Positions 3,831-17,345 of a stretch of 64,000 bases of DNA are shown here, one piece after another (the stretch's first letter is position 1; every line of letters begins with the position of its first letter). The stretch covers positions 124,001-188,000 of the forward strand of contig NZ_KI421511.1 in assembly GCF_000473265.1 (NCBI RefSeq), given 5' to 3'. A program made the position numbers and the translations under genes. This DNA comes from Amycolatopsis thermoflava N1165 (GTDB lineage Bacteria > Actinomycetota > Actinomycetes > Mycobacteriales > Pseudonocardiaceae). The notes under the pieces are model-generated. The model was not told where the DNA came from, searched no databases, and saw nothing but the letters and a program-made list of their open reading frames with translations.

Positions 3831-5407
3831 CCAGCGAGCAGCCACCGCGCCCCGGCCCGCCGCACCCCGGCTCGCCGCGCCGCCGTCCGCCCGTGCCCCC
3901 GCCGCCGCAGGTCCCGCCGCGCGGCGCCGACCGGCCGATGCCGGCCCGCCGTCCCGGCGTGCCGCGTCACGCGCGACCCGAGCCGCAGTCGCCTGCCACT
4001 CCGCCGACGCCTGCCGCGCCCCCGGCGCAGCCGCCGATGCCGCCGCGTCGTCCCCCGGCGCGCCGCCCGGCGCCGCCCGACCACGGCCTCGACCTGTTCG
4101 ACGAGCGGCCCCCGCCGCCGCGTCCCCGCCGGCCGCGGCAGCCGCCGCCGGACGAGTCGCCCACCGAGATCATCCACCTCGAGGACGACTACGAGTACGA
4201 CGACTACGACGACTACCCGGAGAACGCCGACGAGGAGCGCGCCGAGCCCGAGTACATCGAGCCGCCCGACGACGGCGAACCGGTCGAGACGCGGCGCAAG
4301 CGCAAGCCGCTGCGCTGGCTGGTCGCGCTCGTCGTGCTCGCCCTGATCGGCGGCGGCGCCTGGTACGGCATCGACGCCGTCTTCGGCTACGACGACTTCG
4401 AGGGCAGCGGCGAGTCCGACGTCCTGATCGAGATCAGCGCGGGCGACTCGACCGGCGCCATCGGCCAGGAACTGGCCGGGGCCGGGGTGGTGGCCAGCGC
4501 GAAGGCGTTCGTCAAGGCCAGCGAGGACAACTCGAAGGTGCTGAGCCTGCAGCCGGGCTACTACGTCGTGAAGACGAAGATGTCCGGCGCCGCGGCGGTG
4601 GCGAAGCTGACCCAGGACGGGTCGCGCGTCGGCGTGCTGCAGGTGCGGGCTGGCACCCAGCTGGACGACATCACGCAGCCCGACGGCACGGTCACGCCCG
4701 GCGTGTTCACGCTGCTGTCGAAAGCCTCGTGCGCCCAGCTGAACGGGCAGAGCACCTGCATCCCGGTGGAGCAGCTGCGCGACACCGCGGCCAAGGCCGA
4801 CCTGGCGGCGCTCGGCGCGCCGGACTGGGCGGTGCCGGTGGTCTCCGGGTCGACCGACGCCCGCCGCATCGAGGGCCTGGTCGCGCCCGGCGTCTACGAC
4901 GTCAAGCCCGGCTGGTCCGCCGAAGAGCTGCTCGGCTACGTGCTGAAGACGTCGGCCACCCGGATCCAGACCGCCGGGCTGACCGCGACGTCGAAGTTCC
5001 AGGGCCGCACGCCGTACGAGACGCTGATCGTCGCCTCGCTCATCGAGCGCGAGGGCGTGAAGCAGGACTTCGAGAACATCGGGCAGGTCATCTACAACCG
5101 GCTCGCGCAGAACATGCGGCTGCAGCTGGACTCGACGGTGAACTACCTGCTGGACAAGCCGGTCGTGACCACCACCGACGACGACCGGAACCGGCCTGGC
5201 CCCTACAACACGTACAAGATCCCAGGGCTGCCGCCGACGCCGATCTCCTCACCGAGCCCGGAGGCGATCCAGGCGGCCGAGGAGCCGACGCAGGGCACGT
5301 ACGTGTACTTCGTGAAGTGCGAGAAGAACGGCCTGTCCTGCTTCGCGTCGGACCTGCCGGAGCACGAGCAGAACAAGACACTGGCGAGGCAGCGCGGTGC
5401 CTACTGA
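3827..5407 (+). CDS. mltG: Endolytic murein transglycosylase MltG
   Basis: Cleaves nascent peptidoglycan glycan strands and is thought to help terminate their polymerisation. The 526 residues comprise a long cytoplasmic Pro/Arg-rich region (1-110), an acidic Tyr/Asp patch (116-150), one membrane helix (about 163-183, after RRKRKP), then LysM-like and YceG catalytic domains with the conserved glutamate in ASLIEREGV and the late motif [10 protein letters not shown]. The disordered N-terminal extension is typical of actinomycetes. ATG at 3827 overlaps ruvX; the end overlaps aroE by 11 bases. Confidence 0.94.
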
Positions 5408-6236
5408 GCGCAAGGCGGCGGTGCTGGGCAAACCGGTGGCGCACTCGCTGTCGCCGGTGCTGCACACCGCCGCGTACACCGCGCTCGGGCTGGACGACTG
5501 GACCTACGAGCGCGTCGAGATGGACGCCGCGGGACTGCCCGGCTTCGTGCGCGGGCTCGGCCCGGAGTGGGCCGGCCTGTCGGTGACCATGCCGGGCAAG
5601 CGGGCCGCGCTGGACTTCGCGAACGAGGCCACGCCGCGGGCGGTGGCGGCGGGCGCGGCCAACACGCTGGTGCCGACCGCGGACGGCTGGCTGGCCGACT
5701 GCACGGACGTCGACGGCGTCGCCGGGGCGCTGCGGTGCGCCGGCGGGTTCACCGGCGGGGAGACCGGCCTGGTCCTCGGCGCGGGCGGCACGGCGGCCGC
5801 GACGGTCGTGGCGTTCGCGGAGCTGGGCATCCGGCGCGCGGTGCTGGTGGTCCGCGACCCGGCCAGGGCGCGGGAGACCGTCGAGGCGGCCGGCCGGGCC
5901 GGCGTCGAGGCGGACGTGCGCGTGTGGGCCTCGGCGGACTTCGGCAAGCTCGCCGCCGACTGCGCGGTGCTGGTGAGCACGGTGCCGCCCGCGGCGGTCG
6001 CGGAGCACGCGGCCGAGCTGGCCGCCGCCCCGTGCGTGCTGGACGTGATCTACCACCCGTGGCCGACGCCGCTGGCCGAGGCGGCCGCCGGACGGGTCGC
6101 CACCGGCTTGGACATGCTGCTGCACCAGGCGTTCGGCCAGGTCGAGCACTTCACCGGCAGGCCCGCGCCGCGCGAGGCGATGCGCGACGCCCTGCGGCAG
6201 GCGACGGGCGGCATCCTGCCGCTGCCCCTGGACTAG
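5397..6236 (+). CDS. aroE: Shikimate dehydrogenase
   Basis: Reduces 3-dehydroshikimate to shikimate with NADPH in the aromatic amino acid pathway. The 279-residue protein has the substrate-binding start KPVAHSLSPVLHTAAY, the SVTMPGK loop with the catalytic lysine, the ADCTDVDGV segment, the nucleotide-binding loop LGAGGTAAAT, and the late LLHQAFGQVEHFTG motif. GTG at 5397 lies inside the end of mltG. The aroC-K-B-Q genes lie about 11 kb downstream, past an accessory stretch. Confidence 0.96.
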   Translation: MPTERKAAVLGKPVAHSLSPVLHTAAYTALGLDDWTYERVEMDAAGLPGFVRGLGPEWAGLSVTMPGKRAALDFANEATPRAVAAGAANTLVPTADGWLADCTDVDGVAGALRCAGGFTGGETGLVLGAGGTAAATVVAFAELGIRRAVLVVRDPARARETVEAAGRAGVEADVRVWASADFGKLAADCAVLVSTVPPAAVAEHAAELAAAPCVLDVIYHPWPTPLAEAAAGRVATGLDMLLHQAFGQVEHFTGRPAPREAMRDALRQATGGILPLPLD

Positions 6237-6239
6237 CGT
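6234..6239 (+). promoter_or_regulatory. Candidate -10 box for the hydroxyacid dehydrogenase gene (leaderless)
   Basis: TAGCGT fits the TANNNT form and overlaps the aroE stop codon. It ends 7 bases before ATG 6247, so transcription would begin at or next to the start codon. No -35 was recognised. Confidence 0.4.
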
Positions 6240-6246
6240 GAGCACC

Positions 6247-7188
6247 ATGAAGATCGTGGTGCTGGACGACTATCAGGACGTCGCGCGGAGCCTCGCGAAC
6301 TGGGATTCGCTGGGAGCCGAGGTCGAGGTGATCACCTCGTACGTGGGCGACCACGACGAGCTGGTCCGGCGGCTGGCCGGCGCGGAGGTCGTCGTCGCGA
6401 TGCGGGAGCGCACCCGGTTCACCGCCGAGGTGCTGGAGCGGCTGCCCGACCTCAAGCTCCTGGTGAGCACCGGGCGCCGGAACGCGGCCATCGACCTCAA
6501 GGCCACCGAGCGGCTGGGCATCACGGTCTGCGGCACCGGCTACCTGCCCCACCCGACGGCCGAGCACACCTGGGCGCTCGTCCTCGCCGCGCAGCGGCAC
6601 CTGGAGACCGAGCTCGCCGCGATGCGGGACGGCGCGTGGCAGTCCACCGTGGGCATCGGGCTGCACGGCAAGACGCTCGGCCTGCTCGGGCTCGGCAACC
6701 TCGGCCAGCAGGTGGCGCGCATCGGTCAGGCGTTCGGCATGGAAACCATTGCCTGGAGCCAGAACCTGACCGCCGAGCGGGCCGCCGAGCACGGCGTCAC
6801 CGCGGTGTCCAAAGAGGACCTGTTCGCCCGCGCGGACGTCCTGTCCGTGCACCTGGTGCTGTCCAAGCGCACCCGCGGTCTGGTCGGCGCGGCCGAGTTG
6901 GCCGCGATGAAGCCGGGCGCGTTGCTGGTGAACACCTCGCGCGGGCCGATCATCGACGAGCAGGCGCTGCTCGACGCGTTGCGGGAGCGCCGCATCCGTG
7001 CCGCGCTGGACGTCTACGACATCGAGCCGCTGCCTGCCGACCACCCGCTGCGGGCGATGCGCAACGCCACGCTGACCCCGCACCTCGGCTACGTCACGCG
7101 CGAGGTGTACGAGATCTTCTACCGCGACGCGGTCGAGGACATCGCCGCGTGGCGGGACGGGAACCCGGTCCGGGTCATGACGCTGTGA
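6247..7188 (+). CDS. D-isomer-specific 2-hydroxyacid dehydrogenase family protein
   Basis: NAD(P)-dependent interconversion of a 2-keto acid and a D-2-hydroxy acid; the substrate cannot be told from sequence. About 313 residues. Visible parts are the N-terminal catalytic half (MKIVVLDDYQDVARS), the Rossmann loop LGLLGLGNLGQQVA, the catalytic Arg in NTSRGPIIDE, Glu in the IEPLP region, and a late His in LTPHLGY. ATG 6247 is preferred to GTG 6238 because a TAGCGT box lies 7 bases before it, a leaderless arrangement seen repeatedly here. It converges on a protease gene. Confidence 0.9.
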   Translation: MKIVVLDDYQDVARSLANWDSLGAEVEVITSYVGDHDELVRRLAGAEVVVAMRERTRFTAEVLERLPDLKLLVSTGRRNAAIDLKATERLGITVCGTGYLPHPTAEHTWALVLAAQRHLETELAAMRDGAWQSTVGIGLHGKTLGLLGLGNLGQQVARIGQAFGMETIAWSQNLTAERAAEHGVTAVSKEDLFARADVLSVHLVLSKRTRGLVGAAELAAMKPGALLVNTSRGPIIDEQALLDALRERRIRAALDVYDIEPLPADHPLRAMRNATLTPHLGYVTREVYEIFYRDAVEDIAAWRDGNPVRVMTL

Positions 7189-7223
7189 CCGGGGGCGCCT
7201 CCCCGGGCGGGAGGCGCCCCCGG
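7189..7223. terminator. Bidirectional terminator-like hairpin between convergent genes
   Basis: A perfect 15-bp inverted repeat (7189-7203 with 7209-7223) with the loop CGGGC starts right after the dehydrogenase stop and ends just before the stop of the opposing protease gene. There is no U-tract, as is common in high-GC actinomycetes. Confidence 0.75.
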
Positions 7224-7227
7224 CGGC

Positions 7228-8747
<1,520 letters not shown>

Positions 8748-8884
8748 GACGAATAAACCTCCGCAGGGGTGAGGTATTCGCGCCCGACGATGTGCGCGAC
8801 AGGCAGAAGTTAGCGCGCGGAGAACCCGACGAAAGTCGCCAATCCGGTGGCATCGGCGGAAAAACACCCCAGATGGCCTACGAC

Positions 8885-9350
8885 GATCAGCCGCCCGCCC
8901 ACGGCGGCAAACATCAACCGCAGCGCCAAACACGCCACCCGCAGCGGCAAAGTCGCCGTCCGCGGCGGCGAACTCGCCGTCCGCAGGGGCGAACTGGCGT
9001 CCCCAGCGGCCAACACATCACCCGCGTCGGCAACTCGCGCCCGGCAGCAAACACGCCGCGCCTGGCGGCAAACACGCCGCCCCGCCGCCAAACACAACAC
9101 TCGCGGGGCAAACATCCCGCCTCCGGGCGGGCACTCGCTCGTCCCCGCGGCCAACACATCACCCGCGGCAGCCAACTTGCCGCCCGCAGCGGCGAACTCG
9201 CCGCCCGCAGCGGCGAACTCGCCACCCGCAGCGGCGAACTCGCCACCCGCAGCGGCGAACTCGCCACCCGCAGCGGCGAACTCGCCACCCGCAGCGGCGA
9301 ACACCCCGCCCCGAGCGGCCAACACGCCGCGCGCGGCGGCGAACTCGCCG
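8885..9350. repeat. Degenerate-to-perfect tandem array of a 21-bp palindromic unit
   Basis: The 688-base gap between the S1 protease start (8747) and the serine hydrolase stop (9436) is filled by this array. The core GGCGAACTCGCC (GGCGA/TCGCC arms, AC spacer) begins at 9191, 9212, 9233, 9254 and 9275, exactly 21 bases apart, with a degraded sixth copy at 9296 and isolated copies at 8967 and 9338. Variants (GGCAAACACGCC, GGCCAACACATC) fill the rest. Long frames on both strands (heptads GGEFAAA or PPAAANS) are by-products of the 21-base period. Beyond it, TTGCCCTTCCGGGCAA at about 9364 is another short palindrome. Confidence 0.9.
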
Positions 9351-9435
9351 CCCCACCGGTGTGTTTGCCCTTCCGGGCAAGGTGATTGCCCTTCCGAGCA
9401 ACGAAGTGCCCGTTGCGGCCCCCTGGGTGCGGGGG

Positions 9436-10251
9436 TCAGGCGCGGAGTTCAGCCAGCACGGCGTCGGTGAACGGGGGCCACGCCTCGATCGCCCACGGGC
9501 CGAAGTCCAGGTCCGTCAACACGACGCACGCGGCGCCCGCGTCCGGGTCCACCCACAGGAACGTGCCGGACTGCCCGAAGTGCCCGAAGGTCCGCGGCGA
9601 GCTGTCCGCACCCGTCCAGTGTGGACTCTTCGAGTCGCGGATTTCGAAGCCCAGCCCCCAGTCGTTGGGCTTCTGGTGCCCGAGCCCGGGCAGCACGCCG
9701 TTCAGCCCGGGGAACGCGACCGACGTGGCCGCGCGCAGGGTCGCCGGGTCGAGCAGCTTCGGCGCCTGCAACTCGGCCGCGAAGCGCACCAGGTCATCGA
9801 CCGACGACACCCCGCCGGCGCCGGGGGAGCCCTCCAGCCGGGTCGACGTCATGCCCAACGGGGCCAGCACCGCCTCGGACAGGTACCCGGCGAACGGGAT
9901 GCCCGAGTGCTCGGCCAGCGCGTCGCCGAGGACCTGGAAACCGGCGTTGGAGTACATGCGCCGCGTGCCCGGCTGGGCCATCACCCGGTCGGAGTCGAAG
10001 CCGAGGCCCGCGGTGTGCGCGAGCAGGTGCCGGATCGTCGAACCCTCCGGCCCGGCCGGCGTGTCCAGCTCGACCACGCCCTCCTCGACCGCGATCAGCG
10101 CCGCGTACGCGGTGAGCAGCTTGGTCACCGAGGCCAGCCGGAACGTGCGCCCGGTGTCGCCGTGGCTGCCCGCCACCGTTCCGTCCGCCCGCACCACGGC
10201 CGCCGCCGCGTGCGGGGCAGGCCACTGATCGATCCGCTCCAGGCTCCGCAT
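9436..10251 (-). CDS. Serine hydrolase of the beta-lactamase/penicillin-binding class C family
   Basis: A 271-residue protein with the class C-like active site: SVTK (Ser and Lys) in FRLASVTKLLTAYAAL, YSN in RRMYSNAGFQ, and HFGQSG near the end in place of KTG. No signal peptide is visible from the chosen ATG (10251, MRSLERIDQW), so it is probably cytoplasmic. The family includes esterases and D-amino peptidases as well as beta-lactamases, so the substrate cannot be stated. The longer frame upstream runs through the ptsH terminator and was rejected. Confidence 0.88.
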   Translation of the reverse strand: MRSLERIDQWPAPHAAAAVVRADGTVAGSHGDTGRTFRLASVTKLLTAYAALIAVEEGVVELDTPAGPEGSTIRHLLAHTAGLGFDSDRVMAQPGTRRMYSNAGFQVLGDALAEHSGIPFAGYLSEAVLAPLGMTSTRLEGSPGAGGVSSVDDLVRFAAELQAPKLLDPATLRAATSVAFPGLNGVLPGLGHQKPNDWGLGFEIRDSKSPHWTGADSSPRTFGHFGQSGTFLWVDPDAGAACVVLTDLDFGPWAIEAWPPFTDAVLAELRA

Positions 10252-10265
10252 ACCGCAAAGCCTAA

Positions 10266-10299
10266 ACGGCGGCTGTCCCGCGCCGGGGACAGCCGCCGT
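10266..10299 (-). terminator. Terminator hairpin after ptsH
   Basis: A perfect 14-bp inverted repeat (10266-10279 with 10286-10299) with a 6-base loop lies just after the ptsH stop and before the serine hydrolase start. It probably ends the regulator-EIIC-HPr transcript. Confidence 0.75.
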
Positions 10300-12983: not shown

Positions 12984-13432
12984 GCGTGACCGTGCTGAGC
13001 CCGGTGCCGGGCCGGGTCACGCCCATGTCCGAGGTGCCGGACCCGGTGTTCGCGCAGTCGATGGTCGGCCCCGGGGTCGCGGTGCTGCCCGCGGGCGGGC
13101 GGCAGGACGCGCTCAGCCCGGTCGACGGGACGGTGGTGACGCTGCACCCGCACGCGTTCGTCGTCGCCACCGCGGGTGGTCAGGGCGTGCTGGTGCACCT
13201 GGGCATCGACACGGTGCAGCAGAAGGGCGAGGGTTTCACGCTGCACGTCGTCAAGGGCGAATCGGTGCGCGCCGGGCAGCCGCTGATCAGCTGGGACCCG
13301 GACGCGGTCGCCGCGGCGGGGTACTCACCGGTGGTGCCGGTGGTGGCGCTCGACGCGGACGCCGAGGCACTGTCCGGAGTGCTCACCGGCCGCCCCATCG
13401 ACGCCGGCGAGCAGCTCTTCACCTGGGATTAG
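12980..13432 (+). CDS. crr: PTS glucose-type EIIA component
   Basis: A 150-residue cytoplasmic EIIA of the glucose family. The phosphorylated histidine lies in GVLVHLGIDTVQQKG, and VVTLHPHAFVVAT supplies the neighbouring histidine that supports phosphotransfer. LSPVPGRV and SPVDGTV are family landmarks. GTG 12980 overlaps the EIIB stop (GTGA), so IIB and IIA are translationally coupled. With EIIC and HPr on the other strand, this makes a sugar PTS complete except for enzyme I. Confidence 0.93.
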   Translation: MSVTVLSPVPGRVTPMSEVPDPVFAQSMVGPGVAVLPAGGRQDALSPVDGTVVTLHPHAFVVATAGGQGVLVHLGIDTVQQKGEGFTLHVVKGESVRAGQPLISWDPDAVAAAGYSPVVPVVALDADAEALSGVLTGRPIDAGEQLFTWD

Positions 13433-13488
13433 CGCCGCTCGCGCGCGGTCGGCGCTCTGCCGCCCGCGGGGTGGGCGGCGGCTGCCCC
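13431..13488. terminator. Weak hairpins between convergent crr and Rieske genes
   Basis: AGCGCCG and CGGCGCT pair around a 12-base loop immediately after the crr stop, and CCGCCC pairs with GGGCGG further on. Both could act as a GC-rich bidirectional terminator. Neither has a U-tract. Confidence 0.45.
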
Positions 13489-13935
13489 TTAGGCGGTCAC
13501 GACGTTCTGGCCCTCGACCTTGACCGGGATGGGCGTGAGGCCGGTGTCCGCGGGGCCCTTCTCCAGCGCGCCGGTGAGGGTGTCGAACTGCGAGCCGTGC
13601 AGCGGGCACTTGATGGCGTCGCCCTCGGGAGCCACCGTCGCGCCCTGGTGCGGGCACACGGCGCTGAAGCAGGCGGCGGTGGTCTCGGTGGGCCGGGCCA
13701 GGATCGCGGGCTTGCCGTCGACCGTGACGGACTTCGCCTGGCCGACCGGGACGTCGTTCAGCGCCGCGACGGTGGTGCCGGACGGGGCGGCCGTGGCCGA
13801 GCCGGTGTTCTGGCTGCTTCCGGACGTGCCGCTGTCGCTGCCGCAGGCGGCCAGGACCACGGTGCCCGCGGCGGCGCCTGCCACGGCGACCCCGGTCGTC
13901 AGGACGGTGCGGCGGGTGGGTGAGTGAGCAGTCAT
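13489..13935 (-). CDS. Rieske [2Fe-2S] lipoprotein, Tat-exported
   Basis: A 148-residue redox protein. The N-terminus (SPTRRTVLTTGVAVAG) has a twin-arginine signal, followed by a lipobox LAAC that predicts lipid anchoring outside the membrane. After a Ser/Gly/Thr linker comes the Rieske domain with CPHQG and CPLHGSQF supplying the two Cys and two His ligands. It is much shorter than the cytochrome bc Rieske subunit, so it is a stand-alone electron carrier with unknown partner. A SigL-type promoter fits directly upstream (13943-13970), which ties it to the divergent sigma operon. Confidence 0.92.
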   Translation of the reverse strand: MTAHSPTRRTVLTTGVAVAGAAAGTVVLAACGSDSGTSGSSQNTGSATAAPSGTTVAALNDVPVGQAKSVTVDGKPAILARPTETTAACFSAVCPHQGATVAPEGDAIKCPLHGSQFDTLTGALEKGPADTGLTPIPVKVEGQNVVTA

Positions 13936-13942
13936 GCCCCGT

Positions 13943-13970
13943 GACACGGTCGCGGCCCCCGCTCGGTTCA
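13943..13970 (-). promoter_or_regulatory. SigL-type ECF promoter driving the Rieske gene
   Basis: Read on the minus strand: TGAACC (13970-13965), a 16-base spacer, then CGTGTC (13948-13943). This equals the M. tuberculosis SigL consensus as I recall it. Transcription would begin around 13936, next to ATG 13935, giving a nearly leaderless mRNA. Confidence 0.75.
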
Positions 13971-13984
13971 ATCCGGCGGCCGAT

Positions 13985-14012
13985 TGAACCCGATGGCGTT
14001 CCGCCCCGTGGT
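13985..14012 (+). promoter_or_regulatory. SigL-type ECF promoter driving the sigma operon
   Basis: TGAACC (13985-13990), a 16-base spacer, then CGTGGT (14007-14012). It lies upstream of the membrane protein-sigL-anti-sigma operon and suggests autoregulation. It is back to back with the Rieske promoter, the two -35 boxes being 14 bases apart. Confidence 0.7.
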
Positions 14013-14050
14013 GAACGGGTGCAAGGATCGCCGGTGGAGGAGGTCGGGTC

Positions 14051-14440
14051 ATGGTCGCGTGGCTGTTGCGGATCCTGGTGGTCCTCGGACTGCTCGGGTC
14101 GGCGTGGGTGCACTGGGACCTGTGGGCCAACGAGGGCTTCGACGAGATCGAGACGATCGGGCCGTTGTTCCTGGTCAACGTGGTCGCCGGGGTGGTCATC
14201 GCGGTGGCCGTGCTGTTCTGGCGCCACTGGCTGCCGGTGCTGGCCGCGATCGGGTTCGGCGCGGTCACCCTGGGCGCGTACCTGATTTCGCTGACACCCG
14301 GCGGGTTGTTCGGGGTGCGGGAGCAGTTCGCCACGTCCGCCGAGACGTGGGGGGTCGTCACGGAGGCCGGGTGCGTCGTGTTCGGGGTGGCGTTGCTGTT
14401 CGCGCAGCGGGTGCGGCGGAAGCAGGGCGTGCTCGCGTGA
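14051..14440 (+). CDS. Four-helix integral membrane protein in the sigma operon
   Basis: A 129-residue protein with about four hydrophobic segments (LLRILVVLGLLGSAWVHWDLW, LFLVNVVAGVVIAVAVLFW, LPVLAAIGFGAVTLGAYLI, VVTEAGCVVFGVALLFA) and an Arg/Lys end. The HWDLW stretch is reminiscent of small actinobacterial membrane proteins of unknown role. A GGAGGAGG-like site lies before ATG 14051. The stop overlaps the sigma factor start, so it is the first gene of the sigma operon. It may be part of the stress-sensing or response module (inferred). Confidence 0.8.
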   Translation: MVAWLLRILVVLGLLGSAWVHWDLWANEGFDEIETIGPLFLVNVVAGVVIAVAVLFWRHWLPVLAAIGFGAVTLGAYLISLTPGGLFGVREQFATSAETWGVVTEAGCVVFGVALLFAQRVRRKQGVLA

Positions 14441-14949
14441 CCGACGGCGCGGAAGACCAGTTGATGCGGGCGCTGCACGACGACCACGCGGCCGCGCTCT
14501 GGTCCTACGCGCTGCGGCTGACCGGCGGTGACCGGGCCCGCGCCGAGGACGTGGTGCAGGAGACGCTGCTGCGGGCGTGGAAGCACCCGCGGGTGCTGGA
14601 CCAGACACAGGGCTCGGCGCGGGCGTGGCTGTTCACGGTGGCGCGGCGGATCGCGATCGACGACTGGCGGTCGGCCGCGCACCGCTCCGAGGTGACCACC
14701 GATTCGCCGCCCGAGCTGGTCACGCCGGACGACACCGACCGGGCGTTGCAGGGCTGGCTGGTGGCGGAGGCGTTGAAGGAGTTGTCCGCGGCGCACCGCG
14801 AGGTGCTGCTGCTGTGTTACTTCCAGGGCTTCTCGGTCGCCGACGCGGCCGCGCGGCTGGGGATTTCCGCCGGGACCGTGAAGTCCCGGACGCACTACGC
14901 GCTGCGGGCGTTGAAGCTCGCGCTGGAGGAGAAGGGGGTGACCCGGTGA
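14437..14949 (+). CDS. sigL: ECF sigma factor, SigL-like
   Basis: A 170-residue group IV sigma factor. Region 2 (HAAALWSYALRLTGGDRARAEDVVQETLLRAW, with ARAWLFTVARRIAIDDWR) binds core polymerase and the -10. Region 4 (LSAAHREVLLLCYFQGFSVADAAARLGISAGTVKSR) contains the -35 helix-turn-helix. The pattern, including the LALEEKGVTR-type end, closely resembles M. tuberculosis SigL. It is sandwiched between a membrane protein and a zinc-finger anti-sigma gene with overlapping junctions. SigL-type promoters upstream support the assignment. Confidence 0.85.
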   Translation: MTDGAEDQLMRALHDDHAAALWSYALRLTGGDRARAEDVVQETLLRAWKHPRVLDQTQGSARAWLFTVARRIAIDDWRSAAHRSEVTTDSPPELVTPDDTDRALQGWLVAEALKELSAAHREVLLLCYFQGFSVADAAARLGISAGTVKSRTHYALRALKLALEEKGVTR

Positions 14950-15578
14950 CCGAGCCCGACGAGTTCGTGACCTACGACGCGGCGTACGTGCTGGGCGCCC
15001 TGTCCCCGGAGGACCGTGCGGCATACGAGGAGCACCTGCGCGGCTGTGCGCAGTGTTCCGCGGCGGTGGCCGAACTGGCCGGCCTGCCTGGGCTGTTGTC
15101 GCAGGTGACGCCGGACATGGTCGAGGGGGAGCCGCCACCGGACCGGTTGTTGCCGGCGTTGCTGCGCGGAGTGCGCCGCGCCCGGCGGCGGCGGGTGCTG
15201 ACGACGTTCGGGGTGGCGGTGGCCGCGGCGGCGGCGGTGCTGGCGGCGATGTTCGTGCCCCAGTCCGACGGCGGTGGCGGGACGGCCATGACCCCGCTGG
15301 GGGCGTACCCGGTCCAGGCGACGGCCGCGGTGGCGTCGGTGTCCGGCGGCGGCAGCCGGGTCGACATGTCGTGCAGCTACCGGGGCGCCTACGAGGGCGC
15401 GGGGTACCTGCTGGTGGCCATCCGGTCGGACGGAACGGAGGCCCCACTGGCGACGTGGAACGCCACCCCCGACCGGGACGCCCGCATCTCGGTCGGCACG
15501 GACCTGCCGCCGGAGGAGATCAAGGCGCTGGAGATCCGGACGACGAGCGGGGTGCCGCTGCTGCGGTGGCACCCGTGA
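14946..15578 (+). CDS. Zinc-finger anti-sigma factor, RslA-like, one membrane helix
   Basis: A 210-residue protein expected to hold SigL inactive. The N-terminal anti-sigma domain has the zinc motif H-x3-C-x2-C (EEHLRGCAQCS) typical of redox-responsive ZAS proteins. One membrane helix follows an Arg-rich stretch (RRARRRRVLTTFGVAVAAAAAVLAAMF). The remaining 110 residues form an extracytoplasmic domain like the C-terminal domain of RskA/RslA proteins. GTG 14946 overlaps the sigma stop. It may sense oxidative or envelope stress, fitting the Rieske target gene (inferred). Confidence 0.88.
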   Translation: MTEPDEFVTYDAAYVLGALSPEDRAAYEEHLRGCAQCSAAVAELAGLPGLLSQVTPDMVEGEPPPDRLLPALLRGVRRARRRRVLTTFGVAVAAAAAVLAAMFVPQSDGGGGTAMTPLGAYPVQATAAVASVSGGGSRVDMSCSYRGAYEGAGYLLVAIRSDGTEAPLATWNATPDRDARISVGTDLPPEEIKALEIRTTSGVPLLRWHP

Positions 15579-15581
15579 GGG

Positions 15582-15631
15582 GAGTCAGGTGGTGCGCCAC
15601 GCTCGCGGATCTCCATGCCTGTGCCTGACTC
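15582..15631 (+). terminator. Possible weak terminator after the anti-sigma gene
   Basis: GAGTCAGG (15582-15589) pairs with CCTGACTC (15624-15631) around a long 34-base loop. It follows the anti-sigma stop immediately. The large loop makes it a weak candidate. Confidence 0.3.
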
Positions 15632-15678
15632 TCCCGTTGCGCGTCGATTCCTATCGTGTCTCGTAGCTCCCTGCCGCG

Positions 15679-15875
15679 CTTGAGGGTTCCGGCCCCCTGA
15701 AGGTTCCGTCGCGCTTGAATTCCACCCTGCCCCATTTTTTTCCGCACCTCAATTTACCGACACTCCTTGAATGTCCTGCTGCGCCTCCTTTCTTGCCGCG
15801 GCTCGGCTTCCTGTCGCACTTCAATCTCCCACGTCACGTTCCCAAATTCCAGCCGCAGCCTCAAATCTCTCACGT
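15679..15875. repeat. AT-richer degenerate repeats with CTTGAA-type cores
   Basis: In the 553-base gap between the anti-sigma gene and the prepilin peptidase gene, a CTTGA/CTCAA core followed a few bases later by TCC or TCT recurs near 15679, 15697, 15713, 15747, 15766, 15818 and 15859, at irregular spacing. The stretch is visibly less GC-rich than the surroundings (T-run at 15735-15741). No convincing gene is present in it. Confidence 0.5.
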
Positions 15876-16692: not shown

Positions 16693-16811
16693 GCACGGGG
16701 GAGGCCGGTGCCATCGGCAGCGGGCATGTCGTGCTCCTCGGAGAAGGCGGGAGTCAGGCGCGCCTGCCGCTCACGCGGGCAACCGCCCCGCGGAGCCGGG
16801 CGACCGCGAAG

Positions 16812-17345
16812 GTCGGCGCGCTAGCTTGGGCGCGCAGGCGTGACCGGCGGGTGGGCCATGTCAGCCCCGCCCCCTGCGGGCGCCGCTCGTGGGTCAGCCG
16901 CCGGGTGGGGCGGGGCGAACGCGAAGGCGGGTAGCTGCCGGTCGGCGCGCGAGCTTGGGCGCGCAGGCGTGACCGGCGGGTGGGCCATGTCAGCCCCGCC
17001 CCCTGCGGGCGCCGCTCGTGGGTCAGCCGCCGGGTGGGGCGGGGCGAACGCGAAGGCGGGTAGCTGCCGGTCGGCGCGCGAGCTTGGGCGCGCAGGCGTG
17101 ACCGGCGGGTGGGCCATGTCAGCCCCGCCCCCTGCGGGCGCCGCTCGTGGGTCAGCCGCCGGGTGGAGCCGGGCGAGCGCGAAGGCCGGCAGCCTGTCGG
17201 CTGGCGCGCCTGCTTGGGCACGCTGGCCCGACCGGCGGGTGGGCCATGTCAACCGCGCCCCTGCGGGCGCCGTTCGCGGACCAGCCGCCGGGTGGAGCGG
17301 GGCGAGCGCGAAGGCCGGCAGCTGCCAGCCGGCGCGCCATGCCGG
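16812..17345. repeat. 129-bp minisatellite, three near-identical and two diverged copies
   Basis: The 820-base gap between the prepilin peptidase gene and aroC is mostly this array. The anchor GGCCATGTCAGCC recurs with its TCAG at 16861, 16990 and 17119 (129 bases each), then diverged at 17249 and 17420. Each unit contains a small hairpin (CGCCC-CCTGC-GGGCG). Because 129 is a multiple of 3, both strands show long frames with a 43-residue repeat (MTGGWAMSAPPPAG on plus, GGGADMAHPPV on minus), probably not genes since no start signal or family is evident. Confidence 0.9.

Follow-up and report, generated by a model that had tools for sequence, protein, structure and literature searches.

SigL of Mycobacterium tuberculosis has a −35 consensus of TGAACC and is autoregulated. 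In the available part of PMC6372665, its −10 specificity is assigned to residues His54 and Asp60, the latter setting the G at −11, and the experimentally revised −10 consensus is given as T-G-N-C/A-A-G; the targets named in the available part of PMC13002591 are pks7-pks10, Rv1138c-Rv1139c and recN. The available text of PMC2877774 describes how RslA holds zinc through His25, His50, Cys54 and Cys57 and how oxidation of its CxxC loosens SigL; by the same partial source, SigR-RsrA and RpoE-ChrR also have HxxxCxxC zinc anti-sigma factors, a likeness shared by the locus reported below.

This locus lies in a 64,000-nt stretch of Amycolatopsis thermoflava N1165 DNA (hereafter the window, meaning the whole stretch analysed) and, like SigL-RslA, combines a sigma factor with regions 2 and 4 only with an adjacent membrane anti-sigma factor carrying HxxxCxxC. 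It differs from that system by an extra first gene, ORF1, and by a divergent Rieske target, the order of the four-gene module being Rieske, divergent from ORF1, SigL-type sigma factor and zinc anti-sigma factor. We consider it likely that the region between Rieske and ORF1 holds two separate divergent SigL-type ECF promoters, from which the linked sigma factor would drive its own operon and a leaderless Rieske transcript. No link between a SigL-type sigma factor and a Rieske protein was found in the titles and abstract openings of the papers listed by the literature searches, which is not proof of novelty, and none is made in the available parts of PMC5445863 and PMC6922518, where ECF sigma factor, Rieske, anti-sigma factor and promoter occur together.

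On the minus strand, positions 13489-13935 encode a Rieske [2Fe-2S] lipoprotein of 148 residues (ATG at 13935; PF00355, E 3.7e-14). The plus strand carries ORF1 (14051-14440), a 129-residue four-helix membrane protein by its AlphaFold model (pLDDT 92.7), whose Shine-Dalgarno sequence GGAGGAGG can be read at 14036-14043, so that ORF1 is leadered, unlike Rieske; the SigL-type ECF sigma factor (14437-14949, 170 residues); and the zinc-type (HxxxCxxC) anti-sigma factor (14946-15578), identified by a family match, a match to RslA and its predicted structure. The sigma factor start overlaps the ORF1 stop, and the anti-sigma start overlaps the sigma stop, in both cases as GTGA. Both genes of the sigma/anti-sigma operon proposed in a preliminary description made from the sequence are thus present, but its first gene is ORF1 rather than the sigma factor. 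Elsewhere in the window are a tandem array at 16811-17337 (129-nt unit, 4.1 copies, 93% match), immediately before an ORF that we take to be a chorismate synthase gene, and a degenerate one at 8918-9353 (21-nt unit, 21 copies, 73% match).

The SigL-like character given to the sigma factor in that description is upheld by three lines of evidence. The protein passes model NF007227 (PRK09645; 244.7 bits against a cut-off of 202), the description of which is silent on SigL; its best PDB sequence match is SigL (E 3e-54); and in a tree of 63 rows, midpoint-rooted for drawing and not including M. tuberculosis SigL itself, it groups with other Rieske-linked factors of its family, with factors of Nocardioidaceae, Microbacteriaceae and the mycobacterial SigL type as looser neighbours. 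The window's genome (G000) encodes two SigL-like paralogues, 47-48% identical to it; both fall away from it in a group of 28 rows, set off by a branch with 100/100 support, that also includes Streptomyces rows L098 and L113_n0 and the Rieske-adjacent L180. Judged against the residues named in the available part of PMC6372665, His50 of the window protein aligns with SigL His54, and SigL Asp60 is unmatched, aligning with Gln56, which Asp55 adjoins.

The anti-sigma factor has RslA as its best PDB sequence match (E 1.3e-13), and a fold search places RslA (3hug) third (E 2.5e-3), aligned on the zinc domain. H30, C34 and C37 of its HxxxCxxC are invariant in 25/25 rows. RslA His25, the fourth zinc ligand in the available text of PMC2877774, falls on E6, and rows L073 and L081, both mycobacterial, have no His there either; because of this unmatched ligand we call the protein RslA-like rather than RslA. 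In its model a single long helix spans residues 68-102, and the external β domain is predicted with confidence; the PDB fold search gave no match to this domain at E≤0.001. The protein is thus predicted to be membrane-bound, with an external domain bearing one invariant cysteine, unlike RsrA and ChrR, which are soluble. This single external cysteine, C143, is kept in 25/25 rows from Pseudonocardiaceae to Mycobacterium and is a candidate sensor; through either the cytosolic CxxC or C143, either end of the protein could sense.

The divergent gene product shares the Rieske domain with the Rieske proteins of bc1 and b6f complexes and with arsenite oxidase small subunits, the corresponding NCBIfam matches being well below their cut-offs. 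Its N-terminus reads by eye as a twin-arginine motif (RRTVLT) followed by a lipobox (LAAC), and its cluster motif is CPH...CPLH. Among 26 rows, the cluster ligands C94, H96, C110 and H113 are invariant (26/26), as is the lipobox cysteine C31, and R8 and R9 are each found in at least 90%, a combination that marks the protein as a probable Tat-exported lipoprotein. Unlike bc1/b6f Rieske proteins, it is predicted to be a free lipoprotein, no cytochrome b gene being seen by eye beside it in the window, and its clade lacks the two disulfide cysteines: both are present in 23/26 rows, and the window protein has A99 and L112 in their places. The joint loss marks one subclade, formed by the window protein (CPHQGA..CPLH), L032 and L145.

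ORF1 has invariant residues H21, W57 and E105; all its Pfam matches are sub-threshold, and a PDB fold search returned no match at E≤0.001. In genomes without the sigma factor, ORF1 and Rieske still adjoin in 6 of 11 Rieske loci (L044, L047, L056, L206, L209, L213; not side by side in L207, L208 and L210-L212), and this retained adjacency suggests that the two share a function.

The promoter boxes proposed in the preliminary description are present exactly as it gave them. Toward Rieske, on the minus strand, a TGAACC −35 box (13965-13970) is followed after 16 nt by a CGTGTC −10 box (13943-13948), with the ATG 7 nt further on; toward the ORF1-sigma-anti-sigma operon, on the plus strand, TGAACC (13985-13990) is followed, again after 16 nt, by CGTGGT (14007-14012). 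The resemblance of the −10 boxes to the SigL consensus is closer on one side than on the other: set against the revised consensus in the available part of PMC6372665, CGTGTC followed by A agrees at T, G, C and A, but CGTGGT only at T and G. A simple scan of 13400-15800 found no sigma-70 promoter for the Rieske gene. A repeat search revealed a feature absent from the earlier account: the two extended −35 boxes form a perfect 9-bp inverted repeat, GGTTCAATC-N8-GATTGAACC, spanning 13965-13990 (arms 13965-13973 and 13982-13990, 8-nt spacer).

Two matches to TGAACC-N16-CGTG occur in the window against 0.16 expected, a number reached in 1/100 shuffles, and one match to GGTTCA-N5..30-TGAACC against 0.02 expected, reached in 2/100. 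Genome-wide, the first pattern has 57 sites in G000 (reversed control, 1), and 45 of the 55 outside the window pair are called coding by a GC3 test, which makes a single box pair weak evidence and would suit the view that the boxes are functionless sequences, present by chance or by shared ancestry only in a short conserved intergenic stretch. We regard that view as scarcely credible: the 8.69-Mb genome contains the divergent pair with both −10 boxes at a single place, the reversed-pattern control for the pair across 390 genomes of the family Pseudonocardiaceae yielded none among the matches listed, spacer and gap sequences diverge in relatives while the boxes stay, and the same boxes occur in other families. 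A chance origin was rejected on the shuffles, the reversed control and conservation taken together.

A search of related genomes, the check proposed for the divergent pair in the preliminary description, found it in 82 of the 390 family genomes. The 70 matches that were read (L001-L030 and L141-L180) come from 69 genomes besides G000, G220 being represented twice; of the other 12 among the 82, four (G328, G329, G349, G360) were covered by way of their Rieske gene. All four module genes are present at 40/70 matches, and three more (L175, L177, L180) have a sigma factor and a Rieske match without ORF1; the sigma-Rieske link looks real because relatives carry the same arrangement. The other 27 lack Rieske or the sigma factor: nine adjoin a SigL paralogue (L157-L161, L173, L174, L176, L178), and 15 are without any sigma factor (L008, L027, L029, L156, L162-L172). 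L001, L002 and L179 are pattern matches that look unrelated.

Seven of the 15 sigma-less pair loci were translated and adjoin a CHRD-like secreted protein, mostly with a small lipoprotein (both named by the look of the sequence); these neighbours are perhaps a second conserved target of a SigL-type sigma factor. In L180, L175 and L177, a SigL paralogue has near it another Rieske gene that is distinct from the first; this gene is divergent in L180, and farther away and weakly matched in L175 and L177.

Spacing separates two promoters from a single regulatory site. The perfect 9-bp arms with their 8-nt spacer, their rarity in the window and the commonness of an extended ATTGAACC on both sides are what the operator of a dimeric transcription factor would show, with the −10-like boxes incidental. 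Among the linked loci, taken from 62 distinct Rieske/ORF1 intergenic stretches (59 of them sigma-linked), the gap between the −35 boxes nevertheless varies from 1 to 27 nt, which argues against one operator, while the −35/−10 distance is 16 and the Rieske ATG lies exactly 7 nt past the −10 hexamer in 56 of the 58 linked stretches with a Rieske-side motif. Single-strand copies, moreover, precede other Rieske genes, and the Rieske-side box stands alone in six of 18 linked loci. We thus judge the operator very improbable; a single dimer site, which would need fixed half-site spacing, was rejected on the variable gap.

For the reading as two divergent promoters, the fixed start has a further consequence. 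Between −14 and −4 relative to the ATG, where the −10 box takes up some of the sequence, none of the 56 exactly spaced genes has GGAG, GAGG or AGGA, and because of this and the 7-nt spacing the Rieske mRNA is probably leaderless; the numbering in the available part of PMC6372665 would put the A of the ATG at about −1/+1, for a predicted leader of zero to two bases. On the other side, the first in-frame start of ORF1 lies 36-43 nt past its −10 box in 43/53 stretches.

Base frequencies at the box positions are circular for the pattern-picked loci (L001-L030, L141-L180), and sets chosen independently of the motif were therefore used. One consists of the best 70 of 124 Rieske matches, the other 54 being weaker; sigma linkage is known for its first 30 loci, of which 18 are linked (L031-L043, L045, L046, L048, L049, L055). 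TGAACC-N15..17-CGT occurs within 260 nt upstream, in gene direction, of 35/70 Rieske genes (23/30 of the first, 12/40 of the rest), against 13/70 on the opposite upstream strand and 0/70 inside the genes on either strand. All 18 sigma-linked genes have the upstream motif, and so do 5 of the 12 unlinked ones among the first 30. The ORF1-side box is found in 12/18 linked loci (missing in L036, L038, L041, L042, L045 and L046), and autoregulation through these boxes is therefore less general than the Rieske promoter, which by these counts appears the more constant of the two.

The second set was chosen by the sigma factor. A Rieske gene lies within about 3 kb in 10/80 of its loci and has the motif upstream in 8 of these 10 (not in L071 or L078), ORF1 is found in 9/80 with the motif in 9/9, and in 28/80 the motif occurs in the 300 nt that precede the sigma gene. 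The remaining 70/80 SigL-type loci have no Rieske gene nearby; in the Streptomyces rows of this set, Rieske is absent throughout, as is the motif in front of the sigma gene. Because the matches include loci from Actinotalea, Nocardioides and a Frankiales MAG, the link extends beyond the family.

SigL-type promoters also appear to precede Rieske lipoprotein genes outside the module. In 15 such genes not known to be sigma-adjacent (L051, L053, L057, L058, L269, L271, L272, L274, L275, L278, L282, L283, L289, L290, L303), the motif lies 39-89 nt upstream of the matched portion of the Rieske gene.

In G000 itself, a wide regulon was considered on the basis of the 57 strict sites and rejected: beyond the window pair, only the site at G000:C1:8239102 precedes a clear fitting gene, that of a lipoprotein, and nine further sites not called coding were judged unconvincing by eye, the scan covering strict boxes. 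Within locus L214 (G000:C1:8231000-8246000), two SigL-like sigma/anti-sigma pairs occur at 5336-10277 in the neighbourhood of secreted proteins, and at +8103 TGAACC-N16-CGTGTG precedes a lipoprotein gene whose product has two GxVLTDxxGxTxYxF units.

The preliminary description suggested that the sigma factor controls both itself and Rieske. Conservation of the boxes supports this, in 12/18 linked loci on the operon side and 18/18 on the Rieske side, but the boxes do not pin the activity to the linked factor: because two paralogous sigma factors have similar boxes nearby, the assignment rests on linkage and loss. The promoters could thus be of the ECF type, with the Rieske one used mainly by one of the SigL-like paralogues (8236329 or 8240108 in G000). 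Such paralogues do exist, one has TGAACC-N16-CGTGTG before the lipoprotein gene beside it, CGTA-type boxes lie by the other, and like promoters precede SigL-paralogue operons in other genera. We nonetheless think this unlikely, since linkage with the present sigma factor is conserved across many genera of the family, since the −10 box is CGTG in 15/18 module Rieske genes but CGTA in 10/15 away from the module (CGTG in 5/15; L044 and L268 set aside), and since 8/9 promoters are gone where the linked factor is absent.

This last point comes from a natural loss experiment in genus g33, from which the sigma factor is missing: none of its 12 genomes (five of them 82-91% complete) has a SigL match at E≤1e-30, and neither do two genomes of g17. 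Of nine g33 Rieske genes read, eight are without TGAACC-N16-CGT, and L044 keeps the motif despite the absent sigma factor. Five of the nine (L206, L207, L208, L047, L210) have instead GGAGG four bases before the ATG and, by eye, GATAAT or CATAAT further upstream; in L206 and L047, a remnant TGAACG-N16-CGGG marks the former promoter site. Decay of this kind is to be expected of a promoter whose sigma factor has been lost; because a single genus was compared, the loss counts as few independent events.

We infer that the linked sigma factor, rather than a paralogue, uses these promoters as follows. Upon release from the membrane anti-sigma factor, by oxidation of the cytosolic CxxC as in RslA and/or by proteolysis of the single-helix membrane protein, it would transcribe the ORF1-sigL-anti-sigma operon and, from the leaderless promoter, the putatively Tat-exported Rieske lipoprotein. 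Rieske and ORF1 may act as an electron-transfer pair on the outer face of the membrane, made, in what is the weakest step of the scheme, under oxidative or metal stress of the envelope. A bolder extension, which we hold to be doubtful, is that SigL-RslA systems of actinomycetes guard an outside electron-transfer unit, with ORF1 and Rieske as a membrane redox pair and C143 reading the redox or metal state of the compartment in a feedback loop.

In summary, the exactly spaced and probably leaderless Rieske start would be a clean case of a promoter and a start codon fused as one unit. A conserved SigL-type promoter before a predicted exported iron-sulfur protein in these soil relatives would give sigma factors of this type a concrete target and, with it, a testable physiology, that of cell-surface electron transfer and iron.
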